DNA of 39,923 nucleotides from contig CAITRH010000744.1 of assembly GCA_903894755.1 (NCBI GenBank), positions 1 through 39,923 on the forward strand, in the 5' to 3' direction. The position numbers and the translations under genes were made by a program. The stretch is from an uncultured delta proteobacterium. GTDB lineage: Bacteria; Myxococcota_A; Polyangia; Polyangiales; Polyangiaceae. The notes under the pieces were generated by a model. It did not search any database. It worked only from the letters and a program-made list of their open reading frames with translations, and was not told where the DNA came from. Each line of letters begins with the position of its first letter. Positions within the stretch are counted from its first letter, which is position 1. This document shows, piece after piece, positions 13,101-39,923 of this stretch.

Positions 13101-13115
13101 CAGGGACCAAGACGT

Positions 13116-13301: not shown

Positions 13302-13389
13302 CCTCTCAGGTCCCTGTTTTTCGGGCGAAACCGGTCGGCAGAAGCCCCTCAGTGAGGATGCGAAAGCATCACCTTCTCACCTGGTGCAC

Positions 13390-13516
13390 GGTAGCCTCAC
13401 CGGCTCTCCCCGGATGGGGGTCCTCCCCGGCGGGGAGAAACACCGGTTGCGATGTTGCCTCAGCTCTCCCCGCCGGGGAGGACCCCCATCCGGGAGAGAG
13501 CCAAGAACAGGCTACC
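13390..13516. repeat. Intergenic long-hairpin element
   Basis: Arms at 13404-13437 and 13466-13498 are reverse complements over about 33 bp with a single one-base length difference, around a 28-bp loop. Outside them, ggtagcct (13390-13397) pairs with aggctacc (13509-13516). The arms contain internal self-complementary ccccggcgggg stretches. Such a stem could work as a bidirectional terminator between the porin/lipoprotein operon and the convergent diguanylate cyclase gene, or be a REP-like mobile hairpin. It does not carry the TAAAC-type ends of the other elements here. The remainder of the 13302-13736 gap shows no gene. Confidence 0.85.
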
Positions 13517-13736
13517 TTGCGATGACTGACTAGCAAATCTCCGGGACGGCGCGTCACCGTCCCTGCGCTCGAGGCGCATAGGCTGGTGCACTCGCAACCT
13601 CACGGAGAGGCTTCTGCTCGACCAACGTTGCTTGCGTATTTTTCCCTTGTCTCCGTTGCGTTGAGGTGACCCTAGACGGCCCGTGAGAACTACACAACCC
13701 TTATGTGCTCATGGCGTCCAAATTAAGGAACCCCTT

Positions 13737-14840: not shown

Positions 14841-14850
14841 GCGCGGACTA

Positions 14851-14999
14851 TAAACCACGTCCAGATCGAGACCCGCCGTTTCTGCTAGACGAGGCTTTGG
14901 CCGAGGAGCCCGCGCAGCGTACTTAAAGTACGTGAGCAGGCACCGCAGGCCAAAACGGAGTCTGGCGGGAACAGCGGGTTTCGAGATGGGCGTGGTTTA
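14851..14999. repeat. Copy B of the dispersed palindromic element, complete with inverted ends
   Basis: The left end (taaaccacgtccagatcgag) and the reverse complement of the right end (taaaccacgcccatctcgaa) agree over about 27-37 bp, giving terminal inverted repeats around a roughly 75-bp core with its own palindrome (gtacttaaagtac). The 149-bp length, matching ends and lack of coding potential fit a MITE-like or REP-like non-autonomous element. The core recurs inverted at 11285-11390. The element begins 11 bp upstream of the diguanylate cyclase ATG, so it has replaced or supplies that gene's upstream region. Confidence 0.85.
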
Positions 15000-15024
15000 A
15001 CCCAAGGGGACAAGGCGCGGCGCA

Positions 15025-15942: not shown

Positions 15943-16044
15943 AAGGGGCGTCTAGCGCGGAGGCCCACGGCAAGCAAACGACCGTTTGGACCGCGTGTGC
16001 GAAGGGCTTGTACCAAACGCTCGCCCCAGGTGATCCTCGCGGTC

Positions 16045-24603: not shown

Positions 24604-26046
24604 ATGAAGACCACGAGTACAAGGCTCCGGCAGTTCGGAGCCATGACGTTAGCGATGGGAGTGGGCGGGGGTTGGGCGTCTTCGGCCCAAGGGTTCTCCG
24701 AGGACATTTGCGTGCCCAAGGACGGCGGCGCAGTCCAGGAATGCGCCGTTCTTCCCGCCGCCTGCCTGCCGGTGGGGACCACCAGTAACGACTGCCTTGC
24801 AGCAGCACTCGTTGAGTTTCTTGCTGTCCCAGGCAAGACGGGATTCATGCGCAGCCTGGTGCATTCGGACATCACGCATCTTCTTGCCCAGGCCGCGGGG
24901 TTCTCGGCCGACGACGCGTATTGGATCGCGGCCTACGACGAGGTTCCCGACTATGGAATCTTCGAGCCCTTCGATCTCAATGGAATGCCAGTGGGCAATG
25001 GCACCCTGCGCACGGCGCAACTGGACGGGCTCGTACGCACCAATATTCCCACGGGAGGCGCGCTCTTTCATTACGTTGCACCGCGCAGCTCGCCCTCACC
25101 GATTGACGGGCTTCATCCCCAGGTAGGCAACGCGGAGATCGAGGGGCTCTTGGCGCATCTTCGCACGTGGGCGATGGCGGGAAGCGGCAATAGCCATCCC
25201 CTATGCACTGGGGGGCTGACCGTAGCCAGCGATGCTGGGGATCTCGCGACAGGAAATCCGTGTTATCCAGCAGCAGATGCGAGTGTCCCGTTGCGAGGAA
25301 GCTTTGCCATCTTGGGACCCACGGCCGTTCCATTTTCCATCACCACGGGCCCGCAAACTTTGGTGCCGAGCTCGAGCCCACCTTTGTTTTCCGACGCGTT
25401 TGACAGCCTCGTGGGTGGCGAGGGCGGCGATCCGACGCGGATCGCCAACGCGCGTCTGGGCATTTACCTCCATGTGCTCGGGGATCGTGTTTCCCACCAT
25501 GTGTGCTCAGACAAGTCCGCGCTTTCAGGTCCGACCGGTCCCGAGTCGGCGTTCCGACTCGACATGACCGATCCGGAGTGCGCGCAGGGGCCCCATGCGT
25601 TGAGGCATATCTGGGAACAGGCAGTGGACTTCAACCAGCTTACTCCGGAAAACAAGACGACCAATGCGATAGTGGGGGATGTCTACGAGGAGCTGGTGGT
25701 CTTTGCCAAACGGCGCGGAGTGGCAAACCCGCAGGCCGACGATGGGTCGCGCAAGACAGCGCTTTATGCGGCTATCCTGTCCGTGATGCAGAAAACTGGA
25801 GCTGACGTAAGGATCCGTGCGCTCGGGGCGCTTGCGTGTTCTTACGGATACGCCCCGTTTCCTGGAGCTCCGGCCTGTGCCAACGTGTCCGACGCGGGGG
25901 TCGACGCCGGGGTTGACGCGGGAACCGGCGGGGGAAGCCCGGGAAACTCGGGGTGTGCCGTGACGACGGGGGCGCACACTGCGGTTGCCGGGTTTCTTGC
26001 CGGTGTGGCGATGCTGGCGGCGTTGTTCAGGCGCAAACGAAGGTAA
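24604..26046 (+). CDS. Exported protein with MYXO-CTERM-like sorting tail; possible zinc phospholipase-like core
   Basis: A 480-residue product with a signal peptide (MTLAMGVGGGWASSAQGFSE). The C-terminal tail has an Asp/Ala/Gly linker (DAGVDAGVDAGTGGGSPGNS), then GCAV, a hydrophobic helix (AVAGFLAGVAMLAALF) and RRKRR. That is the Cys, transmembrane helix, Arg-cluster layout of MYXO-CTERM proteins, which are processed and displayed at the cell surface in Myxococcota. In the core, HSDITHLLAQAAGFSADDAY with WIAAYDEVPD and later IYLHVLGDRVSHHVCSDKS are rich in His and Asp, spaced like metal ligands in zinc-dependent phospholipase C/P1-nuclease-like helical enzymes; this is only a hypothesis. Its TAA stop is the first three bases of repeat element C. 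Confidence 0.65.
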   Translation: MKTTSTRLRQFGAMTLAMGVGGGWASSAQGFSEDICVPKDGGAVQECAVLPAACLPVGTTSNDCLAAALVEFLAVPGKTGFMRSLVHSDITHLLAQAAGFSADDAYWIAAYDEVPDYGIFEPFDLNGMPVGNGTLRTAQLDGLVRTNIPTGGALFHYVAPRSSPSPIDGLHPQVGNAEIEGLLAHLRTWAMAGSGNSHPLCTGGLTVASDAGDLATGNPCYPAADASVPLRGSFAILGPTAVPFSITTGPQTLVPSSSPPLFSDAFDSLVGGEGGDPTRIANARLGIYLHVLGDRVSHHVCSDKSALSGPTGPESAFRLDMTDPECAQGPHALRHIWEQAVDFNQLTPENKTTNAIVGDVYEELVVFAKRRGVANPQADDGSRKTALYAAILSVMQKTGADVRIRALGALACSYGYAPFPGAPACANVSDAGVDAGVDAGTGGGSPGNSGCAVTTGAHTAVAGFLAGVAMLAALFRRKRR

Positions 26047-26317
26047 ACCAAACCTACTTTGAGAATCCGCCGCTTCCTCGACCTCACCCCCACCTCACCC
26101 CCCAACCCCCCTCTCCCTCGACATCATCCTTGCCCTTGTGGGCAAGGACGATCGTCTTCGAGAGAGGGGGGCTCGGAACTGCGGCTCTCCTCCCCCCTCG
26201 CTCGAAGACAATCCTGATTGCCCGAATGGGCAAGAAGGATGTCGAGGGAGAGGGGGGCTGGGGGGGTGAGGTCTGCGCGAGCGGGCAAGTTGCGGTTCTC
26301 AAAGTGGGTTTGGTTTA
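26044..26317. repeat. Copy C of the dispersed element: 274-bp imperfect palindrome
   Basis: Terminal inverted repeats at 26044-26070 and 26292-26317 match over about 26 bp with few differences (both ends begin TAAACCAAACC when read inward). Inside, a second pair of long arms (about 26078-26165 and 26195-26270: cctcacccccc..., tctccctcgacat..., ttgggcaa-type segments) is again complementary, so transcripts would fold into one long rod. There is no coding potential. The first TAA is the stop codon of the upstream gene. The right half of the gap to 26459 shows no other gene. Confidence 0.9.
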
Positions 26318-26458: not shown

Positions 26459-27547
26459 ATGCAGACGATGCGGAATCTGTTGGGTGTTTTCCTGGGCGGC
26501 GCGATCGTGGTGTTCGGAAGCGGCGCGCTGGCCGACTGGCCCGTGGGGGTGGCCGCCATTCGGTCCGAGCCCAACAAGACGGTCCTGGTGACGGGAAGGC
26601 TCGAGTCGGGAAGGCCGATGGCCGACCTGTCGTGGGCGTCGAGCAGCTCCATGGCGTGCTTTCCCGCCACGCAAAACGCGAAGTTCAGGGGCAACCATGT
26701 CCTCTTCAGCACGAAGCTGCCCGCCCACGCGGAGATGTACATCACGGTCACGCCGACGGACCCGACCAAAGACCTGAGCATCTATGCGTACTCTATCGGG
26801 ACCAACAACTTTCGAGTCCCTCCCACTGTCCCGTCGGCTGTCAGCTGCGAGGCCGAGTACAAGTGGGATCGACCGAAAGCGGGAAGGACCCAGGGGGCAA
26901 GCCGCACAGTGCGTCTCAACGCCACCACCAACCCGTACAATGTGCTTATCGGAGTCAGCGGGCCCGCGGGCGCGACAACGGGCGAGTTCGCCCTCAGTAT
27001 CGAGCTCAAAGGCGGCGCGGCTGCAAGCACTGCTGCGCGGGGGGGCGCCGCTGCAGGACCCGCAACCGGATGGCCTGCTAACGTGACACCGGTGTCTGCA
27101 GCGAAAGGCCAGACGGTCGCTGTCACGGGAAGGCTCGAGTCAGGCGCTCCGATGGCCGATCTGTCCTGGGCGTCGAACAGCTCGATGGCGTGCTTTCCCG
27201 CCACGCAGAACGACAAGTTCCGAGGAAACCACGTGTTCTTCTCTGCGTCGCTTCCCCCGCGGTCCGAGATGTACATCACAGTGACGCCGAAGGATCCCAC
27301 CAAGGATGTCAGCATCTATGCGTACATGGTGGGGACCAACAACTACTCGCTTGCGCCGAACATCGCGTCGGCGGTGACCTGCGAGGCCGAATACAAGTGG
27401 GACCGTCCCAAGAGGGGCAGGACCCAGGACTCGACGCGCACGGTGCGCCTCAACGCAACCACGAACCCATACAACGTGCTTATCGGCGTCAGCGGTCCGG
27501 CCGGGTCCACGGCCGGCGAGTTCACGCTGAGCATCGAGACGAAGTAG
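26459..27547 (+). CDS. Secreted protein made of two tandem copies of one domain
   Basis: A 362-residue product with a signal peptide (LLGVFLGGAIVVFGSGALA-DW). Two copies of a roughly 150-residue domain (about 28-180 and 205-362) are nearly identical along most of their length. Each contains SSMACFPATQN, KFRGNHV, EMYITVTP, DPTK, CEAEYKWDRPK, RTVRLNATTNPYNVLIGVSG and a GEFxLSIE end. An Ala/Gly linker (GGAAASTAARGGAAAGPATG) joins them. The closing strands resemble bacterial pre-peptidase C-terminal (PPC-like) beta-sandwiches. There is one cysteine pair per copy. ATG 26459 follows a purine-rich ggaacggcaagaa ribosome site. No enzymatic motif; binding or surface structural role likely. Confidence 0.7.
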   Translation: MQTMRNLLGVFLGGAIVVFGSGALADWPVGVAAIRSEPNKTVLVTGRLESGRPMADLSWASSSSMACFPATQNAKFRGNHVLFSTKLPAHAEMYITVTPTDPTKDLSIYAYSIGTNNFRVPPTVPSAVSCEAEYKWDRPKAGRTQGASRTVRLNATTNPYNVLIGVSGPAGATTGEFALSIELKGGAAASTAARGGAAAGPATGWPANVTPVSAAKGQTVAVTGRLESGAPMADLSWASNSSMACFPATQNDKFRGNHVFFSASLPPRSEMYITVTPKDPTKDVSIYAYMVGTNNYSLAPNIASAVTCEAEYKWDRPKRGRTQDSTRTVRLNATTNPYNVLIGVSGPAGSTAGEFTLSIETK

Positions 27548-28077
27548 GACTTCCGCCGCGAGCTACTAGGTTGTAGACTGTCGAAGTGAAAACGACAGCG
27601 ATGTGGCTCCTGATTGCGATCACCCTGGGGGGAGTGCAGCTCACAAACTGCCCCCTTCCGCAGCTCCTCCTGCCGTTTGCGCCATGCGTCGAGGATGTCG
27701 CGTAGCTCGTCTCCTCGTCGGCCCGGGTTCGTCGCCTGGAAGGAACGAATGTGGCCCCCCTGGACGCCCGCTGGAACCATCAACTTGTGCGCATAGTCGA
27801 GGACCATCTCGACCTTATCGGGGGAAATCATATCGATCCGGTTCACGAGGGCGAGCAAGCCCTCTACGGAAACCTGCGACCCAATCAGCGACTTACCTCG
27901 TTTCTCCTGACCCGCCACTGCCGCGCGAAGGTGTGGAGCTTCGATCTGTTCCTTGATGCGCAGCGCTTCGGCGAGAGCCTCTTTCATGGCCACCGCTTGC
28001 GGCAGGCCGCGTAACCGCTCTACGAGTTCCTCGTACTCCGGCTTCCACGACTTGTCGCTGTTTCCGGTCTCGTGCAT
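27343..28077 (-). CDS. Helical hypothetical protein with foreign 3' end (truncated)
   Basis: From ATG 28077 the first 140 residues read as a real, charged helical protein: MHETGNSDKSWKPEYEELVE, then LPQAVAMKEALAEALRIKEQ, LRAAVAGQEKRGKSLIGSQV, SVEGLLALVNRIDMISPDKV and ILDAWRKRQEELRKG. Past about 27650 the frame runs antisense to the lipoprotein stub and to the 3' end of the duplicated-domain gene, and stops only at 27343, so the native C-terminus is lost. The EKRGKSLIGSQV stretch recalls a P-loop region but lacks a proper GxxxxGK(S/T). I cannot assign a family. Its start is divergent from the chemosensory operon. Confidence 0.5.
   Translation of the reverse strand: MHETGNSDKSWKPEYEELVERLRGLPQAVAMKEALAEALRIKEQIEAPHLRAAVAGQEKRGKSLIGSQVSVEGLLALVNRIDMISPDKVEMVLDYAHKLMVPAGVQGGHIRSFQATNPGRRGDELRDILDAWRKRQEELRKGAVCELHSPQGDRNQEPHRCRFHFDSLQPSSSRRKSYFVSMLSVNSPAVDPAGPLTPISTLYGFVVALRRTVRVESWVLPLLGRSHLYSASQVTADAMFGASE
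27586..27705 (+). pseudogene. Truncated lipoprotein N-terminus
   Basis: GTG 27586 (or ATG 27601) begins KTTAMWLLIAITLGGVQLTN followed by Cys, a plausible signal peptide with LTNC at the processing site. After about 22 residues the frame becomes antisense to the minus-strand gene ending here and stops at 27705. It is read as the 5' stub of a lipoprotein gene cut by a rearrangement near 27650. Confidence 0.45.
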
Positions 28078-28177
28078 GCTCGGTCCATCTGCAGGAGGCC
28101 TGTACCGTGTGCGCTCGCTCGTTCCATCCGCTTCGTTCTCGACGTGAGGCGACCGTAAGCTGCCGGGGGGACACCTC
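28078..28177. promoter_or_regulatory. Divergent upstream region of the chemosensory operon
   Basis: This 100-bp stretch is the only non-coding space before the eight-gene operon and must hold its promoter if the operon is autonomous. I see no convincing -35/-10 pair and no sigma-54 GG-N10-GC site. The start codon of the first cheW is GTG at 28178, preceded by a weak ccgggggg purine/pyrimidine mix. Confidence 0.3.
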
Positions 28178-28612
28178 GTGGAGGTGATCCTGCTGTCTGC
28201 CGGTAGCAGGCACTGTGCGGTCCCGCGCGAGCACGTGCTCGAGGTCATGCGGCCACTTTCCCTGCAAGCACTAACGGGGGCGCCAACCTACCTGCTTGGC
28301 CTCGCCGTGGTGCGAGGGCGTCCCACGCCCGTCGTCCATCTGGGCCTTTTGCTCGGGGAACAAGAGGCCTCCGTCGCTCGCTGGGTGACCGTACGCACGG
28401 GAGAGCGTCAGGTCGCCCTCGCCGTGAGTGCCGTGGAAGGGCTCGTATCCCTCGAGACGCATGCCTTCGAGGAGTCTGCGCCGCTCCTCGGTCTCTGTCG
28501 GGACAACGCCATCGCCGAGCTTGCGACCCGGGATGGGCAGCTCGTTTTTCTCCTCGAGACCAGCCGCCTGGTGGAGAAGTGCCCCTCCGTGCTGCCCGAA
28601 GGCTCACCGTGA
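28178..28612 (+). CDS. CheW-type coupling protein (WspB-like position)
   Basis: A 144-residue CheW domain from GTG 28178: EVILLSAGSRHCAVPREHVL (first strands), VMRPLSLQALTGAPTYLLGL, then AVVRGRPTPVVHLGLLLGEQ, the V-R-G-x-x-x-P-V-x-(D/H)-L signature, and a second sub-domain ending in VFLLETSRLV. CheW proteins bridge the chemoreceptor tip and the CheA kinase. First gene of the operon; its TGA overlaps the GTG of cheR by four bases (GTGA). Confidence 0.9.
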   Translation: MEVILLSAGSRHCAVPREHVLEVMRPLSLQALTGAPTYLLGLAVVRGRPTPVVHLGLLLGEQEASVARWVTVRTGERQVALAVSAVEGLVSLETHAFEESAPLLGLCRDNAIAELATRDGQLVFLLETSRLVEKCPSVLPEGSP

Positions 28613-30084
28613 GAAAGGGGGCGTCCGTCACCGATCCCATCGCGCTGAAACAATTCGCGAGCGCCGTCAAGGAACGCTTCGGGATCGAGACCGATGACCC
28701 GGTTCGCGCCGGATGGGAGGCCATTCTTGGCCGTCGTCAGCGCGCCGTAGAAGCCTCTTCAGCCTTTCAGTATGTCGCCAAGTGGCTCGCCGGTCAGCTG
28801 GGCCCCGAGGAGGACCGTGAGGTCGCTGTGGAGCTGAGCGTTCCAGAGACCTATTTCTTTCGCTATCCGGACCACTTCGAAGCGCTGGGCGAGGTGGTCC
28901 TTCCGTCGCTCCTCAAACGACCTGGGCTCTCGCGCACCGTGCGCGTGCTGTCCATCGGATGCGCGTCCGGGGATGAACCGTACTCGTTGGCCATCGTCCT
29001 GCGTGAGCGCGGGTGCACGGGCAGCGACTGGAACGTTGTGATCCGCGGGATCGACGTCAACGGAGCGATGCTGAGCAAGGCTCGGCAGGGACGCTACACC
29101 TCGTGGTCGCTGCGAAGCACGTCGGCCGATCTCCGGGCCCGCTATTTCCAAGAGGTCGGCGCGCGCGAGTTCGAAATTGCGCCGGAAATCCGCTCCATGG
29201 TCGACTGCTACGAGAGCAATCTGCTCGACGACGACCCGCGGATCTGGGGCCCCGAGCGCTACGACATCGTCTTCTGCCGAAACGTGATCATCTACCTGTG
29301 CCAGAGCGCCATCGCGCGGCTGGTGAGCAAAGTCGCCAGCGCGCTGACGCCCGGCGGGTTCTTCTTCGTGGGCCACGCCGAAAACCTCGGACACGTGCTT
29401 GCCGGGTTTGCAGCCTGTACCGCCGCAGGCTGCTACTTCCATCAGCGGGTCCAGACCGCGCTTCCGGAAACGTCTGTGTCGTCCACGTGGTCCATACCGG
29501 AGTCGCGTCGCGTCGAGACCGCGGATAGGCCCTCAGCACTGTCGCTCTCCATCCCGCACGCGCTGGCAGAGGAAATCGCCGCCCAGCGCGCCCTCGAGGA
29601 GGTGCTCGAACTGGTGCGTCAAGACCGTCCGGGCGAGGGGCTCGCACGGCTCGCAGCGATGCAGGGGGACATCGCCGACCGACGCGAGATCCGGATCGCA
29701 AAGGCGGCGTTGCTCGTCAATGCGGGAGGCGTGGCCGACGCGGAAACGCTGACCACGCAGCTTCTCGCGAGCGATCCGCTGGACGCCGAGGCTTGGTACA
29801 TTCGCGCACTTTGCCGTGAACGCAGCGGGGACCGGGTCGGGGCACTCGACGCGGCGGAGCGATCGGGACGAGCCGAGCCGGCGTTTGCCCTCGTGCGCCT
29901 CTACCTGGGGCTGCAGTGGAGCCGACGGGGCGATCGAATCCGCGCGCGGCAGGAGCTGGGCGACGCACTTCGCTTGCTTGGACGTGAACCCGAAGAACGC
30001 CTCCTTCTTTTCGGGGGGGGCTTCGGTCGAAACGCCCTGATGGACGTCTGCCGGCACGAGCTCGAACGCGCGGGGAAGGGGTGA
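28609..30084 (+). CDS. CheR-type receptor methyltransferase with C-terminal TPRs (WspC-like)
   Basis: A 491-residue protein. It has an N-terminal all-helical CheR domain (to about residue 80), then the SAM-dependent methyltransferase domain with VELSVPETYFFRYPDHFEAL, motif I VLSIGCASGDEPYSLAIVL, VIRGIDVNGAMLSKARQGRY and the CheR signature YDIVFCRNVIIYL. From about residue 300 it continues into a 190-residue TPR-like tail (AKAALLVNAGGVADAETLTT, DPLDAEAWYIRALCRERSGD). It methylates receptor glutamates. The fused TPR tail is the arrangement of Pseudomonas WspC rather than of the flagellar CheR. GTG start at 28609 overlaps the cheW stop; CheW2 follows after four bases. Confidence 0.93.
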   Translation: MRKGASVTDPIALKQFASAVKERFGIETDDPVRAGWEAILGRRQRAVEASSAFQYVAKWLAGQLGPEEDREVAVELSVPETYFFRYPDHFEALGEVVLPSLLKRPGLSRTVRVLSIGCASGDEPYSLAIVLRERGCTGSDWNVVIRGIDVNGAMLSKARQGRYTSWSLRSTSADLRARYFQEVGAREFEIAPEIRSMVDCYESNLLDDDPRIWGPERYDIVFCRNVIIYLCQSAIARLVSKVASALTPGGFFFVGHAENLGHVLAGFAACTAAGCYFHQRVQTALPETSVSSTWSIPESRRVETADRPSALSLSIPHALAEEIAAQRALEEVLELVRQDRPGEGLARLAAMQGDIADRREIRIAKAALLVNAGGVADAETLTTQLLASDPLDAEAWYIRALCRERSGDRVGALDAAERSGRAEPAFALVRLYLGLQWSRRGDRIRARQELGDALRLLGREPEERLLLFGGGFGRNALMDVCRHELERAGKG

Positions 30085-30088
30085 GTCC

Positions 30089-30628
30089 ATGGGACCCGAC
30101 TGGAACGAAGAGGTCGAGGCATGGCGCAAGGCCTTCGATCGGAGCTTCGCGCTTCCCGCGACGCTGGGGTCGCGCGCCGTGGAGAAATGCCGTCTGCTCG
30201 TCGTCGAGGTCGCCGGTCGTCGGTGCGCCTTCGATGTCGCGACGCTGGGTGGACTCCTCTCGATTCCGCGGATCGTTCCCGTTCCATCTCCGCTCCCCGA
30301 GTTCCTCGGGATCGTATCCGCCCGTGGCGTGCTCACTCCCGTGTACAGCCTTGCCGCGCTGCTCGGCTGGGAGCACGCGAACGAGGTCACCCACAAGTTG
30401 ATTCTGTGTCCGTCCCCCGAGAACCTCGCGCTGGCGACTGGAACGGTGCTTGGCTACGAAGAGCGCGCGCCCGAGGAGTTGATGAACTTTCAGGACACGG
30501 ACCCCGCGGGGCGGGCGATTGTCGCGGCGATGGCGATGGCGGACGGCACGCGAATCCCCATTCTCGGTCTGGGCCAACTGGTCCGTTACCTTGGTGCGCG
30601 AATCCGCGCGGCGAAAGAGAGCAGATAA
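30089..30628 (+). CDS. Second CheW-type coupling protein (WspD-like)
   Basis: A 179-residue protein with an extra N-terminal arm of about 30 residues (WNEEVEAWRKAFDRSFALPA) before the CheW fold: CRLLVVEVAGRRCAFDVATL, then LPEFLGIVSARGVLTPVYSL (the R-G-x-x-x-P-V-x-x-L signature) and IPILGLGQLVRYLG at the end. It is longer than CheW1, like WspD compared with WspB. Two coupling proteins in one operon suggest mixed receptor arrays. The MCP gene starts one base after its stop. Confidence 0.9.
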   Translation: MGPDWNEEVEAWRKAFDRSFALPATLGSRAVEKCRLLVVEVAGRRCAFDVATLGGLLSIPRIVPVPSPLPEFLGIVSARGVLTPVYSLAALLGWEHANEVTHKLILCPSPENLALATGTVLGYEERAPEELMNFQDTDPAGRAIVAAMAMADGTRIPILGLGQLVRYLGARIRAAKESR

Positions 30629-30629
30629 C

Positions 30630-32099
30630 ATGGCACGCAGATGGACCCTTGCCACAACGCTCAATCTGTCCTTCGGGGCGCTCCTTGGCTGTGTCGTCCT
30701 GTCCATCGCGGTCGGAGTGATGGCACTACGCTCGGTGGCCGTGGCCAATGATCGCGTGCTCACGGTCCATGTTCCCAACCAGCTCGATGCGGAGCGCTTG
30801 GCGAAGCACGGCGAGACCCTGGTTGCCGAGGCGCGCGGGGTGTTCCTCACGGGCGACTCGAGCTTCGAGAGCCCGATGCGAGAGGCGTCGGGCGAGTTCC
30901 GCAAGGACATCGAACGTCTGCGCAGCCGGGTGCGCACGGAGGAGGGGCGACGCATAGTCGACGCCATCGACGTTGCCGAACGCGATTTCCAGGGGGCGCT
31001 CGAGGAGGTGATCCGCGAGCGCAGGGGGGGGATGGGAATGGAGGAGACCCTCAAGGCCATACGCACCCGGACGCTTCCCCGGCGCATGGTCCTTGCCAAC
31101 CAGGCGCGCGGCTTGCTGGAACGCGAGGAGGGCTTCGTCATGGCCGGCCAGCGCGAGGTCGAGAGCGCGACGCGGTTCGCCCTGTGGTCGTTTGCCAGCG
31201 TGGGGGCGTTCGCATTGCTTCTGGGGGGAGCGATGGCGGTCCGGCTCAAGAGCTCGGTGACCCGGCAGATCGGCGGGGCGGTTCAGAGCATGAAGACCTC
31301 CACCACCGAGCTTCAGACCGCGGCGACGGAGCAGGCGTCGGTGCTCAAGGAGCAGGCCACCGCGATGAGCGAGATCGGCACGACCGTGACGGAGCTTTTG
31401 GCGACATCCCGGCAGATCGCCGAGAGTTCGCAGCGTGTCGCCACGGTCGCATCGGAGACCGCGGGCGCGGCGAACCACGGCAACCAGACCGTCATCCGGG
31501 CCCAGGAGTCGGTGACGAGCATCCGCAGTCAGGTCGATCTCATCGTCGGGCACATGCTCGATCTGGGGAAGAAGTCCCAACAGATCGGCGGGATTCTCGA
31601 GCTTATCAACGAGCTCTCCGAGCAGACCAACATCCTTGCCATCAACGCGACGATCGAAGCGGCCGGTGCTGGGGAGTCGGGGCGTCGCTTCGCGGTCGTG
31701 GCCGACGAGATTCGCAGGTTGGCCGACCGGGTGGCGAGCTTCACCAAGGACATCCGTGTGCTGATCGAAGAGATCCGGAGCTCCGTGAACACGACGGTGA
31801 TGGCGACGGAGGGGGGCTCGAAGGCCGTGGACAACGGCGCCAGGCAGGTCGGCGAAGTGGCCACGGCTTTCCAGGACATCGTGCGGCTGGTCGGGACGAC
31901 GACCGATGCAACGCGCGAGATCGAGCTGAGCACCAAACAGCAGACCACCGGAGTGGAGCAGGTCAAGATCGCCATCGGGGAGGTTGCCCAAGGGACGAAG
32001 GAGACCCAGGCTGCAGCGACGCAGACGCTCCAGACCGCGCGGCAGCTCGCCGAGACCTCCAGGGATCTCAGCGAGCTCATCGAGACGACGGGTGGCTAG
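30630..32099 (+). CDS. Methyl-accepting chemoreceptor (WspA-like), apparently without HAMP
   Basis: A 489-residue receptor. It has TM1 at about residues 10-32, a helical periplasmic four-helix-bundle type sensor (HVPNQLDAERLAKHGETLVA through MVLANQARGLLEREEGFVMA), and TM2 at about 188-208. A cytoplasmic hairpin follows, with its tip LSEQTNILAINATIEAAGAG followed by ESGRRFAVVADEIRRLADR, the universal CheA/CheW-contact region. Between TM2 and the hairpin only RLKSSVTRQIGGAVQSMKTS is found, not the usual 50-residue HAMP domain, and then a regular coiled coil begins. It ends in IETTGG with no CheR-tethering pentapeptide. The TAG stop lies at the left edge of a repeat element. Confidence 0.93.
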   Translation: MARRWTLATTLNLSFGALLGCVVLSIAVGVMALRSVAVANDRVLTVHVPNQLDAERLAKHGETLVAEARGVFLTGDSSFESPMREASGEFRKDIERLRSRVRTEEGRRIVDAIDVAERDFQGALEEVIRERRGGMGMEETLKAIRTRTLPRRMVLANQARGLLEREEGFVMAGQREVESATRFALWSFASVGAFALLLGGAMAVRLKSSVTRQIGGAVQSMKTSTTELQTAATEQASVLKEQATAMSEIGTTVTELLATSRQIAESSQRVATVASETAGAANHGNQTVIRAQESVTSIRSQVDLIVGHMLDLGKKSQQIGGILELINELSEQTNILAINATIEAAGAGESGRRFAVVADEIRRLADRVASFTKDIRVLIEEIRSSVNTTVMATEGGSKAVDNGARQVGEVATAFQDIVRLVGTTTDATREIELSTKQQTTGVEQVKIAIGEVAQGTKETQAAATQTLQTARQLAETSRDLSELIETTGG

Positions 32100-32248
32100 A
32101 CCTCACCCCCCGCTATTTCGCCCTTTCACAGCGCCCCCTCCCCATCGATGGGGAGGGGGAATGTGTAGGAGCGCGAAATCGCAGGGGGTGAGGTCTGCGG
32201 GATCGCGACGATGAAGGAAGATGCGCTTCTCAAGATGGGTTTGGTTTA
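32097..32248. repeat. Copy D of the dispersed element, inserted between the MCP and cheA genes
   Basis: The right end, 32223-32248, reads outward as taaaccaaacccatcttgag, the same terminus as element C. Inside, gacctcaccccccgctattt (32100-32119) pairs with the aaatcgcagggggtgaggtc region (about 32176-32196). An inner perfect stem, cccctccccatcgatggggagggg, lies at about 32144-32167. The left terminus is not intact: only TAG ACC, which is the MCP stop codon, resembles it. The right end stops three bases before the cheA ATG, so the element exactly fills the gap. Confidence 0.88.
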
Positions 32249-32251
32249 GCC

Positions 32252-34384
32252 ATGGCAAAGGACCCCTACCGCTTCTTTCGGGTGGAGGCGCGAGAGCTGC
32301 TTCAAGGGCTCGCCGAGGGGGGGCTCTCTGCCGAGCGGGGTGAGGGAGGGGTCGAGCTCGTCAAGCGTCTGCTCCGTCTCGCCCACACCCTCAAAGGGGC
32401 CGCTCGTGTCGTCAAATTGCTCGACATCTCCGAGCTCGCCCACGCGATGGAGGACGTCCTAGGGCCCTCGCGCGAGTCCGGCGTCGTGCCGCCCGAGGCC
32501 GCGCTCACGCTCTTGGCGCAGATTGACCAGGCGCGGGCGCGTCTCGCGGCGCTCGATGGGATGGACGCGGCTCCGAGTGCGCGCGTGGAGGTTCCATCCC
32601 CTCCGCTGAGCACGGCGGCTCCAGATCGAGCGCCGCCCCTACGTCGCGCCATTTCGAAGCCGGTGGAGCCCCGGGGCCCGTCCGCAAGCGCCATCGAAAC
32701 CGTGCGCGTCGACCTCCTGGAGGCCGATCGGCTCCTCGGACAGCTCGTCGAAGCACGGGTGCGCCTCACCCGGGTCCGCGATGGGGCCGGTCGCATCGAG
32801 CGTCTCCGTGACCTCGCCCTTGCGGGGACACGCGCGCTTGGTCGGATGCGCCAGGGGACGAGCGGAAGCGCGGCATCGCCGAGCGAGCTGGCGAAGCTGG
32901 GGGCGACTCTCGAGGAGCTGCTGCAGGTTGCGACCGAAATCGGCGAGACCACGTCTACGGGGCTCTTCGAGGTCAAACAGGCGCTCGGAACGGCCCATGA
33001 CCTCGCAGCGGGGATGCGACTGGTCTCCGTGCGGACGCTGTTTCCCGACCTCCGACGGGCCACCTACGATGCCGCCCGCGAGCTCGGTCGCCAGGTCCGT
33101 TTCGAGGGGGTGGGGGGGAGCGTCCGCCTCGACGAGCCCGTTCTAGGCCCGCTGCGCGAAGCGCTTCTGCATGCGGTACGAAATGCGGTGAGCCACGGCA
33201 TCGAGCCTCCAGAGGAGCGCACCCTTCGGGGAAAGCCGGCCGAGGGGCAGGTGGTGGTGACCGTGGAACTGGTGGGCGATCATGTGCGGGTCTGCTGCCG
33301 CGACGACGGCCGCGGCGTGGACCTCGGCTCCATACGAAGCGCCCTGGCTCGCCATGGCGTGCTCCCCGAGGGGCCGGAACTCGACGAGAACGAGCTGCTC
33401 GACTGCTTGCTTGGCGCGGGAGTGAGCACACGCCTCGACGTCGATGCCGTCGCGGGCCGGGGGGTTGGGCTCGATGTCGTTCGGGAGGTCGCGCGACGGC
33501 TTCGCGGTCGGGCCACGCTGCGCAACACGGCGGACGGTGCCGAGTTACGGATCCAAGCGCCGGTGTCCCTTGCCTCCCTGCAGGTGGTGGGGGTCACCGT
33601 GGGGAGCGTAGCTGCGTGGGTGCCCGTCGAGGCTGCGCGTGGAGCCCTGCGGGGACAAGAGAGCGAGATCGATGGGTCGCTCGGGTACGCGTCCGTACCG
33701 TTTGGAGATCGGCTGGTCCCCTTGGTCCCCCTTGCCACGGTGCTGGGACTCGATGTCGCGCCTGTCAGCCCGTGGTCGGCGCTTGTCGTCGAGGGGGCGG
33801 AGGGGCTCGTGGCTTGGCGGGTCGACCGGTTGACCGGAGTGCAGCGGATCGTGGCGCGCGGGCTGCCGGAGTTCATGGTCGCACACCGGGTGGTGACCGC
33901 TGCGGCTCTGAGCGCCACTGGTGAGCCGACGCTGGTGCTCGATCCTCGGGGTTCGGACGCGCACCGGGATTCCACGCCGCGCGAGGCCCCGGCAGCTCCG
34001 CGACGGCAACGGGTGCTGGTGGTGGATGACTCCCTTACCACGCGGATGTTGGAGCAGAGCATCCTCGAGTCCGCGGGCTACGAGGTCGAGGGGGCATGTT
34101 CGGGCGAGGAGGGATTGGAGAAGGCCCTGCAGGGAACCTTCGCGCTCGCCGTCGTCGACATCGAGATGCCCGGCATGAACGGCTTCGAGTTGGTCGAGGC
34201 GGTACGACGGGATCCCACCCTGCGGACCCTCCCGATCGTCATGGTAAGCTCGCGCAACGCGCAGAGCGACTTTGACAGGGCCAAGGGGGCGGGAGCGAAC
34301 GGGTACATCGTGAAGGGAGAGTTCGACCAGCAGCGGCTCCTGACGGTGATTGCCTCGCTTGCAGGAGAGTCGGCGGTCCCATGA
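32252..34384 (+). CDS. CheA-type histidine kinase with fused receiver (WspE-like)
   Basis: A 710-residue hybrid CheA. It has an Hpt domain (residues 1-105) with phospho-accepting His45 in RLAHTLKGAARVV, a Pro-rich linker, a dimerisation helix pair (about 150-230), and an HATPase domain. The HATPase shows the N-box LLHAVRNAVSHGIEPPEE near 305, the G1 box RDDGRGVD and the G2 box AGRGVGLDVVREVARRLRG. A CheW-like regulatory domain (about 450-575) and a C-terminal receiver (RVLVVDDSLTTRMLEQSILE, phospho-acceptor Asp near 635 in VVDIEMPGMNG, conserved Lys in YIVKGEF) complete it. No P2 domain is seen. The domain order is that of WspE. There is no clear Shine-Dalgarno because the repeat element abuts the start. 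The stop overlaps cheB by four bases. Confidence 0.95.
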   Translation: MAKDPYRFFRVEARELLQGLAEGGLSAERGEGGVELVKRLLRLAHTLKGAARVVKLLDISELAHAMEDVLGPSRESGVVPPEAALTLLAQIDQARARLAALDGMDAAPSARVEVPSPPLSTAAPDRAPPLRRAISKPVEPRGPSASAIETVRVDLLEADRLLGQLVEARVRLTRVRDGAGRIERLRDLALAGTRALGRMRQGTSGSAASPSELAKLGATLEELLQVATEIGETTSTGLFEVKQALGTAHDLAAGMRLVSVRTLFPDLRRATYDAARELGRQVRFEGVGGSVRLDEPVLGPLREALLHAVRNAVSHGIEPPEERTLRGKPAEGQVVVTVELVGDHVRVCCRDDGRGVDLGSIRSALARHGVLPEGPELDENELLDCLLGAGVSTRLDVDAVAGRGVGLDVVREVARRLRGRATLRNTADGAELRIQAPVSLASLQVVGVTVGSVAAWVPVEAARGALRGQESEIDGSLGYASVPFGDRLVPLVPLATVLGLDVAPVSPWSALVVEGAEGLVAWRVDRLTGVQRIVARGLPEFMVAHRVVTAAALSATGEPTLVLDPRGSDAHRDSTPREAPAAPRRQRVLVVDDSLTTRMLEQSILESAGYEVEGACSGEEGLEKALQGTFALAVVDIEMPGMNGFELVEAVRRDPTLRTLPIVMVSSRNAQSDFDRAKGAGANGYIVKGEFDQQRLLTVIASLAGESAVP

Positions 34385-35466
34385 CCCATCGCGTGCGGGT
34401 CCTGGTGGCCGACGACTCGACGACGGTGCGCATGCGGCTCTGCGAGATTCTGAGCTCCGATCGGCAGATCGAAGTGGTAGGCCAGGCTGCGGACGGAAGG
34501 CGTGCCGTGGAGCTTTGCCAGCATTTGCGTCCATCCGTTGTCACGCTCGACATGGCCATGCCGAAGCTCTCTGGGGCCGAAGCGACGGAGGTCATCATGG
34601 CCCGCTGTCCCACGCCGATTCTGATCGTGTCGTCGTCGACCAACCGGGGAGATCTTTTTCGAACGTACGATGCGCTGGCTGCGGGGGCGCTCGACGTCAT
34701 GGACAAGCCGCGCGGTGACGAGGCGGATGGGGTCTGGGAGCGCTTGTTTCTGTCGACGGTCAAGCTCGTCTCGCGCGTACGGGTCGTCACGCACCTGCGT
34801 GGGCGGTTCGCGCACCGCTCCTTGGCACCCTTGGCACCCATGGCGGCATCCCCGTGTCCGATGCCGCCATCCGAGCACTGGCAACCGGGCCTAGTGGCCA
34901 TCGGGGCTTCAACCGGTGGGCCTGCGGCGTTGCTCGAGATCCTGGGCCAACTGCCGTCCGACTTCTCGTTGCCCATCGTGGTGGTCGTTCACATCGCGGC
35001 GATCTTTGGAGACGGGCTTGCCGATTGGCTCGACAACGCCGTTCCGCTGGAAGTCCGCATCGCGGAGGATAGGGCGGCGCTGGGGCAAGGGGGCCGTGTG
35101 TGGCTGGCACCGGCAGACCGGCACCTTCGCGTCGTGGAAGGTGCTTTGCGTCTGGACTCGGGTCCCGAGAGGCATTCGTGTCGGCCGTCGGTGGATACGC
35201 TGTTCGAGTCTGTGGCTACGGAGTTTGGGCCACAGGCGATCGGAGCGTTGCTGACGGGGATGGGACGCGACGGGGCTCAGGGGCTCTTGGTGATGCGACG
35301 CGCTGGAGGGGTGACCATTGCGCAAGACGAGCCGTCGTCAGTGGTCTTTGGCATGCCGCGAGAGGCCATTACGATTGGGGCGGCGAGGGAGGTACTGCCG
35401 CTCTCGCTCGTGGGGCCCCGGCTCGTCGAGCTTGCGCCGGCTCCATGGCGCAGGAGGAGACCATGA
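34381..35466 (+). CDS. CheB-type methylesterase response regulator (WspF-like)
   Basis: A 361-residue protein: a receiver domain (VRVLVADDSTTVRMRLCEIL, phospho-acceptor Asp near 56 in VVTLDMAMPKLSG), a linker, then the methylesterase domain. The domain contains AIGASTGGPAALLEIL (catalytic Ser about 177), VVVVHIAAIFGDGLADWL (His about 204) and LLTGMGRDGAQGLLVMRRAG (Asp about 296), followed by QDEPSSVVFGMPREA. The full Ser-His-Asp triad is present, so it should remove methyl groups from the operon's receptor and provide adaptation. Loss of the equivalent WspF locks the Pseudomonas system on. It overlaps the next gene by four bases. Confidence 0.94.
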   Translation: MTHRVRVLVADDSTTVRMRLCEILSSDRQIEVVGQAADGRRAVELCQHLRPSVVTLDMAMPKLSGAEATEVIMARCPTPILIVSSSTNRGDLFRTYDALAAGALDVMDKPRGDEADGVWERLFLSTVKLVSRVRVVTHLRGRFAHRSLAPLAPMAASPCPMPPSEHWQPGLVAIGASTGGPAALLEILGQLPSDFSLPIVVVVHIAAIFGDGLADWLDNAVPLEVRIAEDRAALGQGGRVWLAPADRHLRVVEGALRLDSGPERHSCRPSVDTLFESVATEFGPQAIGALLTGMGRDGAQGLLVMRRAGGVTIAQDEPSSVVFGMPREAITIGAAREVLPLSLVGPRLVELAPAPWRRRRP

Positions 35467-37535
35467 CCCTCTCGGTGCTCGTTTTGGACGCGAGCTTGAC
35501 CGCCCGCAAGACACTGGCCGAGGCCCTGGAAGCAGAGGGGATTGCGGCGACCGACTGCGCGGACAGTGTGCCGACGGTGCTCGAAGGAAACTCCTTCGCA
35601 GTCATCGTCCTTGGGGCGGAGCTCGGCGATGGGCCCATGGCCGATCGGATCGAGGCGTTGGCTCCCCACCTGGCGGGCTCCGCGCGCATCTGGCTTTGCG
35701 ACATGGCGTCTCTGGGAGACACGAAGGCATTCGACGTCTCCCACGATGCGTTTGTCGGTGCGGACTACGACGTGGCTCAAGTCGCGGCGCTGGCGAAACA
35801 GCTTGCTCTGTCGAGTGCCTGCCAAGTTCGTCGGCAGCGCGTGCTGGTGATCGATGACTCGGCGACATTTCGCGAAGAACTCAGTGAGGCGTTGCGCGAG
35901 GCGAGCTACGAGGTCGAGACGGCTGCGAGCGGCGAGCAGGGGATCGAGCTCGCAGCGCAATGGCGTCCCGATGCCATCGTCGTTGACAGGATTATGCCGG
36001 GGATCGACGGTGCCACGGTCGTACGTCGCGTTCGAGTGCACCCGGTGCTCCGTCGGGTCCCCTGTCTTTTGCTCACGGCCGAGGGGGCCGAGGAGGCAGA
36101 ACTCGAGGCCCTCGAGGCGGGAGCCGACGCGTTCGTACGCAAGGACGAGGAGCTGGCGCTGGTCCTTGCGCGCCTTGGGGCCACGCTCCGGGGGGCGACC
36201 AGCCCCTATGAACTCCCGGAACCGACCCCCCAACGGCGTCCTCACGTGATCTTGGCGGTCGACGACAGCACCACCTACCTGCATGCGCTCGGGGACGAGC
36301 TCGCGGACGCCGGCTACGAAGTTGCGCTCGCCGCCAGCGGCCGCGAGGCGATGGAGCGGCTCGGCGGACAGAAGATCGACTGCATCCTGCTCGATCTGGT
36401 GATGCCAGGGATGAACGGCGACGAGGTATGCCAGAGAATCAAAGCATCCCCCGAGTGGCGCGACATCCCCATTGTGATCCTGACCGGGACCGACGAGCCG
36501 CATGCGATGATCCACAGCATCAACGCAGGTGCCGACGACTACATTGTCAAGTCCGCCGATCCCGAGGTCTTGAAGGCCCGTCTGAAGGCGCAGATACGCC
36601 GTAAGCAATTCGATGACGAGGCACGCCAGTGGCGTCTCTCGTCGCTGAAGCGCGAGATGGAGGCGGCCGAAGCGCGGGCGGCCTCGGAGCTTGCGGAGAC
36701 GCGTGCCGGACTGCTCGCCGACTTGGAGCGCAACAACCGCGAGCTTGTGAAGGCCAAAGAACGGGCCGAACGCGAGAGTCAGTTCAAGTCGCGTTTCCTC
36801 GCCAACGCCTCCCACGAGCTACGTACGCCGCTGACGGCCATCCTGGGCTTCTCGCAGCTCCTCGACAAGCAGACCTTCGGTGCGCTGAACCCGCGGCAGG
36901 CGGACTATGTGCGCAACATCGTGGTCAGCAGCCAGCACTTGCTGGCACTCGTCAACGACATCCTCGACTTGTCGCGCATCGAGGCCGGTCGTATGGCGCT
37001 GCAGTTCGAGTGGACGAACTTCGGTGAGCTCGCCCGCGCTGCGCGTACCGTGCTCACGCCGCTGGCGGACAAGCGGCAGGTCGAGCTCTACTACGACCTG
37101 CCGCCCGACGAACTCACCCACATGTATGCCGACCCGCTCCGCGTCAAACAGATCCTTTACAACCTGATCTCCAACGGGTTGAAGTTCACCCAGGCTGGAG
37201 GCACGGTCACACTGTCGGCCACGGTGATGGCGGGGAGGCTCGAGTTCTGCGTGGCCGATACCGGCGTGGGCATCAAGGTCGAAGACATGAAGCGCCTGTT
37301 CCAGGTGTTCGAGCGGATCGAGTCCGGCGACACGCGCCAGGAGGGGAGCGGGCTCGGCCTTGCGCTGACCAAGAAGCTCCTGGAGCTTCACCAAGGGAGC
37401 ATCCGGGTGACAAGTACGCCAGGACGAGGGTCCATGTTTACGGTGACCCTGCCGATATCACAGGACGCGTCTATGACCCCCCCGCCGCCGTCTCCCCCGC
37501 CGCCGTCCCCCCCGCCGCCCGCACAACCACCTTGA
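35463..37535 (+). CDS. Histidine kinase with three N-terminal receiver domains
   Basis: A 690-residue soluble protein without membrane segments. Receiver 1 (3-118) is degenerate: it reads LSVLVLDASLT where an Asp pair is expected and VIVLGAELGDG where the phospho-acceptor Asp should be. Receiver 2 (about 124-240) and receiver 3 (about 260-380) have intact acidic pockets, Asp (VVDRIMPGIDG and LLDLVMPGMNG) and Lys. A coiled coil (LKREMEAAEARAASELAETR) leads to HisKA with FLANASHELRTPLTAILGFS (His about 450) and an HATPase domain (NLISNGLKFTQAGG, VADTGVGI, GSGLGLALTKKLLELHQG). The last 20 residues are a PPPPSPPPPSPPPP tail. Start at ATG 35463 (ATGA overlap with cheB). It probably links CheA output to the downstream multi-receiver cyclase. 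Confidence 0.93.
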   Translation: MTLSVLVLDASLTARKTLAEALEAEGIAATDCADSVPTVLEGNSFAVIVLGAELGDGPMADRIEALAPHLAGSARIWLCDMASLGDTKAFDVSHDAFVGADYDVAQVAALAKQLALSSACQVRRQRVLVIDDSATFREELSEALREASYEVETAASGEQGIELAAQWRPDAIVVDRIMPGIDGATVVRRVRVHPVLRRVPCLLLTAEGAEEAELEALEAGADAFVRKDEELALVLARLGATLRGATSPYELPEPTPQRRPHVILAVDDSTTYLHALGDELADAGYEVALAASGREAMERLGGQKIDCILLDLVMPGMNGDEVCQRIKASPEWRDIPIVILTGTDEPHAMIHSINAGADDYIVKSADPEVLKARLKAQIRRKQFDDEARQWRLSSLKREMEAAEARAASELAETRAGLLADLERNNRELVKAKERAERESQFKSRFLANASHELRTPLTAILGFSQLLDKQTFGALNPRQADYVRNIVVSSQHLLALVNDILDLSRIEAGRMALQFEWTNFGELARAARTVLTPLADKRQVELYYDLPPDELTHMYADPLRVKQILYNLISNGLKFTQAGGTVTLSATVMAGRLEFCVADTGVGIKVEDMKRLFQVFERIESGDTRQEGSGLGLALTKKLLELHQGSIRVTSTPGRGSMFTVTLPISQDASMTPPPPSPPPPSPPPPAQPP

Positions 37536-37587
37536 GGGGACGGGGGCGCGGCAAGTTGAAATGCGGTCTCTGTGGGAGGGGAATGCG

Positions 37588-39600
37588 ATGGCAGCACGAA
37601 TCCTGGTTGTCGAGGACGAGCCTCTAATCCGTCAGCTCATTTGCGATCTGCTCGAGGACGCTGGCCATCAGGTCACGCGGGCGGGGAACGTGTCCGAGGC
37701 GTTGCAGCTCGCCAGGAGCTTCCACCCGGATCTTGTCCTCCAAGATCTCCATGTCCCGGGTGGGGGCGGCCAGATGGTGCTGCGCGAGTTGCGAACTATG
37801 GAAGGGTTGAGTGACCTTCCGGTGATTGTGGTCACGGCGCAGGCGATGACCGGGGATCGGGAGCGGCTCATCGCCATGGGTTTCGACGGGTACTTCAGCA
37901 AGCCCATCGACATCGAGACCTTTACGGAAATGGTCGAGAGCTACCTTGGGAACGTCCCGACCGCTCCATCGGAACCCGCCACACCCCGCGCTTCCCTTTC
38001 ACCAAACCCTGCGCAGAACGCGTTCTCTTCGGTGCTCCCGGCGCGCGCGCAGGCCCTCGTCGGTGCTGTCGAACACTGGCTCACGAGTCCTTCCGATGCT
38101 TCGCTGCGCGCCGAAGCCGGCCTCCTTGCGCACGCCCTGCGCGGGACCGCGGGATCCTACGGGTGTTCCGAGATCGCCGACGCCATCGAACGGATCGAGG
38201 GGTCGCTGGGGGACATGGCGACCGAGTGGACGCCGGATCAGTCTATAGCCCTCGAATCGCTGCGGCGGGCCGCTGCACCGGAGGTCGCCAAGGGACAGGG
38301 CCGTGTGAGCGTGCTGCCTTCCGCATCGCTACCCCTCGGGCGTTTGCTGATTGTTGACGATGACCGCGAGTTTCTTGCCTATGTGATCAGGCTTGGGCGT
38401 GCCATGTCCCTGGAGGTACTTGCCGCTCCGTCTTCCAAGGAGGCGCTCGAAACGGTCGCCGTGTTTCCGCCGGACGCGGCCATCATCGACGTTCGCCTTG
38501 GGAACGAGGAGCACGGTTTCGGGCTTGCGCGGCAGCTCCGCGACAACCCGAGGCTTGTCTCCTTGCCGATGGCGTTCGTCTCTCTCGACGGGAGCCTTGA
38601 GAATCGCATTGTGGCAGCCCACGCTGGCGCGATGCTCTTCCTGTCCAAGCCGCTCGAGGCCGCGGTTTTCCAGGACGCCGTAAGGCAGCTTCTTTCCGTC
38701 CCGCAAGCCGAGCAGACTTGTGTGCTCGTTGTGGATGACGACCCGAGTTTCCTCGATCTCATATCGGCCAGCCTGCGCGAGGAAGGGATTCGCGTCCACA
38801 CTCTGTCGGACCCGCGCGACATCCTGCCGATGCTCAGTCGCGCGAGGCCGGACCTGGTGCTGTTGGACCTGAACATGCCCCACATCACGGGGTTCGATGT
38901 CTGTCGTATGCTTCGCAGCCACCCTCAGCACAAGCACCTCCCCATCGTCGTGATCACTGCGCACACGAACACGGCCATACGGATCGAGGCGTTTGGCGCG
39001 GGAGCGGACGACTACGTACCGAAGCCTTTCTTGAAGCAGGAGCTTCAGGCGAGGGTGCGGGTGCGTGTCGAGCGGGCGCGCTGGCAACGTGAGCGGGCCG
39101 AGATCGATGTATTGACAGGCCTCCTCAGGCGACAGCCCCTGCTCGAGCACGCGTCTGCGCGGCTGGCCGAGGCGCAACGCAAGGGGCAGCCACTGTCGCT
39201 CGCTGTGCTCGACATCGATCTGTTCAAACCGGTCAACGACAACTTCGGACACCTGGCGGGCGATCGGGTTCTCTCGGGGCTCGGCGGCCTTCTCACGCGC
39301 CACTTGCGGCCGCAGGACCTGCGATGCCGCTGGGGAGGCGAGGAGTTCGTGGTGGTGCTGCCGGAGGTCGACGCGGTCACCACGAACGGCGTCCTCATGC
39401 GCATCCTGCGCGAGTTCGGTGTTCGGACGTTCGAGGGGGACAACGGCGAGCGTTTTCAGTGCACGTTCAGCGGGGGCGTTGCCTGTTTTCCGGGCGACGG
39501 CGGGACATTCAACGAGCTGTTCGCGGTCGCCGACCGGCGTATGTACGCGGCCAAGCGGGCAGGGCGCAGACGAATCCTATCGACCGATCGCATCGAGTAA
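37588..39600 (+). CDS. REC-Hpt-REC-REC-GGEEF diguanylate cyclase (WspR-like output)
   Basis: About 670 residues from ATG 37588, preceded by a good ggagggg ribosome site; a longer start at 37561 is less likely. The order is receiver 1 (RILVVEDEPLIRQLICDLLE, Asp in VLQDLHVPGGGG), an Hpt domain (His in LLAHALRGTAGSYGCSEIA), receiver 2 (LLIVDDDREFLAYVIRLGRA, AIIDVRLGNEEHG), receiver 3 (VLVVDDDPSFLDLISASLRE, LVLLDLNMPHITG, YVPKPF), then a GGDEF domain. The latter has LAVLDIDLFKPVNDNFGHLA, RWGGEEFVVVLPE and YAAKRAGRRR. RPQD lies five residues before GGEEF, so the RxxD inhibitory site is kept. The cyclase should be active and phosphorylation-controlled. Last gene of the operon, 52 bp after the kinase gene. 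Confidence 0.94.
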   Translation: MAARILVVEDEPLIRQLICDLLEDAGHQVTRAGNVSEALQLARSFHPDLVLQDLHVPGGGGQMVLRELRTMEGLSDLPVIVVTAQAMTGDRERLIAMGFDGYFSKPIDIETFTEMVESYLGNVPTAPSEPATPRASLSPNPAQNAFSSVLPARAQALVGAVEHWLTSPSDASLRAEAGLLAHALRGTAGSYGCSEIADAIERIEGSLGDMATEWTPDQSIALESLRRAAAPEVAKGQGRVSVLPSASLPLGRLLIVDDDREFLAYVIRLGRAMSLEVLAAPSSKEALETVAVFPPDAAIIDVRLGNEEHGFGLARQLRDNPRLVSLPMAFVSLDGSLENRIVAAHAGAMLFLSKPLEAAVFQDAVRQLLSVPQAEQTCVLVVDDDPSFLDLISASLREEGIRVHTLSDPRDILPMLSRARPDLVLLDLNMPHITGFDVCRMLRSHPQHKHLPIVVITAHTNTAIRIEAFGAGADDYVPKPFLKQELQARVRVRVERARWQRERAEIDVLTGLLRRQPLLEHASARLAEAQRKGQPLSLAVLDIDLFKPVNDNFGHLAGDRVLSGLGGLLTRHLRPQDLRCRWGGEEFVVVLPEVDAVTTNGVLMRILREFGVRTFEGDNGERFQCTFSGGVACFPGDGGTFNELFAVADRRMYAAKRAGRRRILSTDRIE

Positions 39601-39923
39601 GGGAGCCCAAACCCATTGGATTACCTAAGCCCCGCCGTAAAGCTGCTGCGCGACGCAAATCGTCGGTCGGGGTCGCTCAAAATACAGGAGTATTCCTCGC
39701 TCGCCCTTCCTAGCTTTGCGTCGCTCGCGACGCTTTTCGGCGAGGCTCTACCTAGCCCCTCCTGGCGGAGCCGGCACGTGAGCAAATCATGAAATGCCGC
39801 GATCACGCCCAACCCAGGGTTACCCACCGTGGGCTGATTTGACTCGCCCCTTCGGGGCTGCCAATCAACGCACGTCGTCATCATCTATTGCGTAAGGGCC
39901 CCCCGCTGGAAAGGACCACGAGC
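39601..39923. other. Right-edge intergenic stretch, no gene assigned
   Basis: About 320 bp without a supported gene. A minus-strand frame (39621-39884) is open for 87 residues, but its text (for example LLTCRLRQEGLGRASPKSVA) has no domain and no ribosome site; it looks like conserved intergenic or element-flanking sequence. A small hairpin (ccccttcgggg, about 39848-39858) and the pair cccaggg/ccctggg-like bases near 39810 are the only structures seen. No clear terminator follows the operon. Confidence 0.4.

Follow-up and report, generated by a model that had tools for sequence, protein, structure and literature searches.

In Pseudomonas, the Wsp system couples a chemosensory (Che) array to a diguanylate cyclase, and the signal passes from WspE to WspR. 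In Che clusters that contain CheR-TPR, a kinase module is present in approximately 40% of the response regulators, and GGDEF or Hpt domains in others (PMC3447774). In the Che3 system of Rhodospirillum centenum, a second kinase, CheS3, is the sole phosphodonor of the output regulator; CheA3 phosphorylates one of the CheS3 receivers and thereby inhibits, rather than activates, this kinase (PMC3868531). Cluster 2 of Halomonas titanicae, a Che cluster resembling Wsp, contains an Hpt-REC-REC-GGDEF cyclase, and its receptor was assigned by the authors to the 40H class (PMC5907407). The stretch of DNA analyzed here (39,923 nucleotides, hereafter the window) carries an operon in which each element has a described precedent; no other locus that we examined combines the Che core, a triple-receiver kinase, and a REC-Hpt-REC-REC-GGDEF cyclase, and a literature search found no description of this combination. 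We read the locus, with a probability of about 0.6, as an ACF-type operon from a CheA lineage with a triple-receiver kinase, joined to a phosphorelay-type diguanylate cyclase and leading to c-di-GMP. The operon most likely controls c-di-GMP through the kinase and the cyclase, somewhat in the manner of Pseudomonas Wsp, but it stands outside the Wsp lineage.

Pfam matches far above chance revealed eight genes in 28178–39600, all co-directional (+), in the order cheW, cheR-TPR, cheW, mcp, cheA-REC, cheB, soluble kinase gene, and GGDEF gene, which agrees with the content and order given in the first-pass annotation. The gene cheW1 (28178–28612; 144 aa, GTG start; Pfam CheW 1.1e-17) encodes a WspB-like coupling protein and is followed by cheR with a C-terminal TPR (28609–30084; 491 aa; CheR 4e-47, TPR_16 1.4e-5) and by cheW2 (30089–30628; 179 aa), whose CheW domain at residues 36–166 (5.4e-12) is preceded by an N-terminal arm of about 35 residues. 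The receptor gene mcp (30630–32099; 489 aa; MCPsignal 5e-39; CHASE3 2e-4, below the Pfam cut-off) precedes cheA-REC (32252–34384; 710 aa; CheA parts and a receiver at 8.5e-23), in which motif positions identified an Hpt domain with His45, a HATPase, a CheW domain, and a receiver with Asp636. The gene cheB (34381–35466; 361 aa; Pfam 3.9e-58) encodes a receiver with Asp57 and a methylesterase, and its product was the sole whole protein given a specific name above the cut-off in an NCBIfam scan. The last two genes encode a soluble histidine kinase (35463–37535; 690 aa; Pfam HisKA/HATPase and receivers, no transmembrane segment) and a diguanylate cyclase (37561–39600; 679 aa; Pfam REC and GGDEF, alignment, AlphaFold2). 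As previously claimed, no CheY or flagellar gene was found by Pfam among the eight genes, and no pilus gene either; the contig stops at 39923, 323 bp past the cyclase gene.

The locus shares with Wsp a receptor signaling domain of WspA length, two CheWs, CheR-TPR, CheA-REC, CheB, and a receiver-controlled GGDEF output. However, the gene order is W-R-W-MCP-A-B in the window and MCP-W-R-W-A-B in Wsp, the triple-receiver kinase is additional, the CheA lies outside the Wsp clade, and the cyclase has a REC-Hpt-REC-REC-GGDEF architecture instead of the REC-GGDEF of WspR. In the receptor, two transmembrane segments (hydropathy maxima close to residues 15 and 188) flank the CHASE3-like periplasmic region. 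In a heptad alignment, the signaling domain matched WspA without a gap, and E. coli Tar required two gaps of 14 residues, indicating WspA length, or Tar plus 14 residues per arm. This length presumably fits receptor class 40H.

The junctions from cheW1 to the cyclase gene measure -4, +4, +1, +152, -4, -4, and +25 bp, and thus five of the seven are tight, including the 4-base overlaps of cheR with cheW1 and of the kinase gene with cheB; the exceptions are mcp-cheA (152 bp) and kinase-cyclase (25 bp). The mcp-cheA gap is filled by a sequence (32098–32248, no strand assigned) with 46-nt inverted arms at 32098–32196, for which an RNA hairpin of -74.9 kcal/mol was predicted (z -9, that is, 9 SD below shuffles). 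Its core and ends are also present in contig C329 of the same genome, and its 22-bp right end (32227–32248) recurs as the terminal inverted repeats that bound a related element (26044–26317). In our reading, the gap element is a MITE-like palindromic repeat, dispersed in the genome and here one-ended, and it may attenuate or split transcription. A single transcript for the eight genes is not assured because this hairpin repeat occupies the mcp-cheA gap, and the claim of one transcriptional unit is therefore not established. No Rfam match was found in 27500–39923, and sigma-70 promoter and terminator scans at the operon ends returned nothing useful, with two terminator-like sites falling within the cyclase gene. 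The element at 26044–26317 is itself MITE-like and spans 274 bp; its 22-bp terminal inverted repeats are 95% complementary, and it contains long internal palindromes. Its opening TAA supplies the stop codon of an ORF ending at 26046, and three contigs of the same genome, C329, C423, and C727, contain related ends.

To place the CheA, we collected CheA sequences from relatives of the source genome, from loci with kinase relatives, and from reference loci, the latter comprising Wsp of C. metallidurans, Mesorhizobium, and Novosphingobium (L059–L061), a Halomonas cluster-2-type locus (L058), E. coli, Pyxidicoccus, and Pseudomonas, including the canonical Wsp operon of P. flavescens (L263) and Pil-Chp. 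A 62-sequence CheA tree recovered the four Wsp references as a 100/100 clade without the window CheA, which fell in a separate 100/100 clade of ten together with relatives from its own phylum. Forcing the window and Wsp CheAs together cost 169 log-likelihood units (AU P = 5.6e-69). A FastTree tree of 82 rows gave the same grouping, the window clade now having 12 rows. The CheA tree and the AU test thus reject membership of Wsp by lineage, and the label "Wsp-like" given in the first-pass annotation does not hold in that sense. The window CheA also split, at starred branches, from the E. coli, Pseudomonas flagellar-type, and Pil-Chp CheAs and sat among CheA-REC clusters; the flagellar and Pil-Chp classes were rejected on this placement, consistent with the non-flagellar nature claimed earlier. 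The CheA of the Halomonas cluster-2-type locus was not in the window's clade. The cluster combines multidomain response regulators with CheR-TPR, and the operon has no flagellar or pilus genes, which corresponds to the published ACF criterion (PMC3447774). Tree placement and composition (CheR-TPR, CheA-REC, multidomain regulators) together support assignment of the operon to the ACF type.

The soluble kinase was confirmed to have three receiver folds as claimed, but only two of them are able to accept phosphate by their residues: receiver 2 with Asp175 (35841–36182, +; Pfam Response_reg, motif position) and receiver 3 with Asp311 (36249–36584, +; Response_reg at residues 263–374). Receiver 1, which Pfam does not recognize, has Gly51 at the position where 10 of 10 relatives keep Asp. 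The catalytic core (36786–37460, +; residues 442–509 and 557–666) matched Pfam HisKA (82 bits) and HATPase_c, with His451 and the N-box present, no transmembrane segment by hydropathy, and no HWE family among its Pfam matches. In architecture, the window resembles R. centenum Che3, which likewise has a CheA-REC and a soluble kinase with N-terminal receivers, one of them without Asp. CheS3, however, is an HWE kinase with a PAS domain and two receivers, whereas the window kinase has a HisKA core, no PAS domain, and three receivers; the degenerate receiver is REC2 in CheS3 and REC1 here, and the Che3 output is the single-domain CheY3 rather than a cyclase. Compared by its description, CheS3 is an analogue of the window kinase and not a demonstrated homologue. 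In the kinase relatives at L119–L121 and L135, the Asp of receiver 3 is replaced by Glu or Ala, possibly locking it on or off.

The product of the last gene, previously described as a receiver-GGDEF protein, proved to be more elaborate, with Pfam, alignment, and the AlphaFold2 model indicating REC-Hpt-REC-REC-GGDEF. Receiver 1 with Asp62 (37597–37950, +) and receiver 2 with Asp310 (38341–38709, +) were placed by alignment, model, and residue check, and receiver 3 with Asp436 (38719–39069, +) by Pfam, model, and residue check; the GGDEF domain (39097–39573, +) matched Pfam at 6e-36. Pfam found all three receivers and the GGDEF domain, and no transmembrane segment was present. Between receivers 1 and 2 lies the Hpt helical domain with His191 (38005–38289, +), which scored 22.9 bits, just below the Pfam cut-off of 24.6, while two homologues scored 38.8 and 32.9 bits; four main helices occupy this segment in the model. 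The AlphaFold2 model (mean pLDDT 80, pTM 0.49; GGDEF part pLDDT ~90) comprises a receiver, the helical Hpt segment, two receivers, a signaling helix, and the GGDEF domain, and its best PDB match was PleD, followed by DgcR and WspR. Asp62, His191, Asp310, and Asp436 are all intact, whereas many family members miss one or more of these phosphosites. The GGEEF active site (592–596) and the RxxD I-site (R583xxD586) are also intact, making a cyclase output enzymatically plausible. Caulobacter PleD likewise has two adjacent receivers followed by GGDEF, but it has neither the N-terminal receiver nor the Hpt of the window cyclase. Halomonas cluster 2 is similar in being a Wsp-resembling Che cluster with CheR-TPR, CheA-REC, and a cyclase with an Hpt and two receivers; it differs in that this cyclase has no N-terminal receiver, a CheY is present, the extra kinase is absent, and the gene order is different. 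Elsewhere in the window, a further GGDEF protein of 373 aa is encoded apart from the operon (13737–14858, -).

We then assessed whether the last two genes are conserved with the che genes. A triple-receiver kinase lay at or near cheA/cheB in 8 of 12 window-clade CheAs (window, L023, L119–L122, L129, L135), a fraction inflated because six of these eight loci were fetched via the kinase; among the clade CheAs fetched via CheA, two of six (window, L023) had it. In these small locus sets, the kinase adjoined CheA or CheB in L023, L119, L120, L121, L124, L129, and L135 and was near CheA in L122, with L124 showing the order cheB-kinase-cheW-cheR and no CheA on its short contig. Of the other four loci fetched via CheA, L024, L269, and L270 had a same-strand REC-REC protein, and L022 had neither this protein nor the kinase. 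Because the clade of the window repeatedly has triple-receiver kinases next to CheA, and because kinase-bearing regulators are frequent in CheR-TPR clusters (PMC3447774), the view that the kinase expands a Wsp system is not supported. No window-clade member other than the window had a GGDEF gene in the cluster, and conservation of the cyclase with che genes was not found in relatives, in a 379-genome sample of the phylum, or in named genomes. Many genomes of the phylum, and Obscuribacterales-type genomes as well, contain the cyclase family, and the signaling neighbors of its members are hybrid kinases and lone receivers: two-receiver hybrid kinases with lone receivers in L143–L145, L147, L148, L170, and L197, and a kinase fragment with a lone receiver in L141. 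Judged by gene content, these neighborhoods are phosphorelay settings. Because the kinase recurs and the cyclase relatives adjoin hybrid kinases, the kinase is a recurrent part of the che lineage and the cyclase seems to have been recruited to it locally; co-conservation, expected for both genes, thus held for the kinase and not for the cyclase. Apart from the window, a cyclase of exactly this architecture was seen close to che genes in L162 alone (9273–16272), from a MAG labelled Actinomycetota; there, the REC-Hpt-REC-REC-GGDEF cyclase gene lies after an HK-REC gene and before a receptor gene, with cheR/cheB on the other strand. In L163–L165, L168, and L169, mostly from Obscuribacterales/Melainabacteria-type genomes, a cyclase of the family with its REC1 Asp lost is followed by a lone receiver gene.

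In the scheme that follows, all phosphotransfers and their signs are inferred, as are the stimulus and the output to c-di-GMP. The membrane receptor with its periplasmic domain, the two CheWs, and CheA would form an array that CheR-TPR and CheB adapt. Phosphate from CheA His45 would have three kinds of target: the receiver of CheA itself, acting as a sink or brake; CheB; and either or both of the intact kinase receivers, whose phosphorylation would change the activity of the second kinase. Kinase His451 would phosphorylate Asp62 of cyclase receiver 1, from which the phosphate would travel via Hpt His191 to Asp310 of receiver 2 or Asp436 of receiver 3, promoting PleD-like dimerization and c-di-GMP synthesis, which product binding at the RxxD I-site would limit. 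That the array reaches c-di-GMP by exactly this path, through CheA, the triple-receiver kinase, and a receiver-Hpt-receiver relay within one cyclase, uniting the logics of Wsp and Che3, is a tentative proposal, and the idea that the surface or envelope is sensed is a guess by analogy with Wsp.

We favor an ACF-type operon with its kinase joined to a phosphorelay-type cyclase because of the domains and residues, the cyclase fold, the 100/100 CheA clade, the recurrence of the kinase, the phosphorelay neighbors of the cyclase relatives, and the Che3 and Halomonas precedents. It is weakened by the palindrome, which may split the operon between mcp and cheA, and by the sub-threshold Hpt score; the cyclase-che link rests on adjacency in one genome, as no other sampled clade member has the cyclase. 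CheA may switch the kinase either on or off, as the R. centenum kinase is inhibited by its CheA. Phosphorylated kinase receivers might accordingly shut the kinase off, as CheA3 does to CheS3 (PMC3868531), so that CheA activation lowers c-di-GMP; the pairing of CheA-REC with a multi-receiver kinase that has one receiver without Asp fits this, but the different kinase subfamily, the missing PAS domain, and the different position of the degenerate receiver do not. This sign variant of the favored explanation, whose likelihood overlaps with it, appears rather unlikely.

A direct route, in which CheA itself phosphorylates a receiver of the cyclase and the extra kinase serves as a parallel input or phosphate sink, would follow Wsp, where the same Che complement with a WspA-length receptor signals from WspE to WspR, and three intact cyclase receivers could accept phosphate from two donors. 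We consider it unlikely, given that the REC-Hpt-REC-REC-GGDEF family mostly adjoins hybrid kinases and not CheA, that related loci also have the kinase beside CheA, and that the CheA is outside the Wsp clade. Finally, the cyclase, or the kinase and cyclase together, could be an independent two-component pair that happens to follow the che operon, a view to which the 25-bp gap, the contig end just after, and the lack of conservation of the cyclase beside che genes elsewhere lend something. The kinase gene, however, overlaps cheB by 4 bases and has counterparts beside CheA in related loci, and the cyclase gene follows on the same strand after 25 bp, which makes a chance neighborhood improbable.

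On the favored reading, the operon would be a compact, testable case of chemosensory array rewiring, its Che core and second kinase sharing one lineage and its cyclase stemming from another source, a widespread family of phosphorelay cyclases. If the relay operates in the proposed way, receptor adaptation could tune c-di-GMP via several phosphotransfer checkpoints, in contrast to the one CheA-to-WspR step. For annotation, it is relevant that possession of Wsp parts is no evidence of Wsp ancestry. The same genome has a second che cluster (L054, contig C305 of G000, 357–10461) with CheA, CheW, a multi-HAMP receptor, CheB, and CheR; genes for a PAS protein and a GGDEF-EAL protein come next on that strand, and this cluster may also be connected to c-di-GMP.
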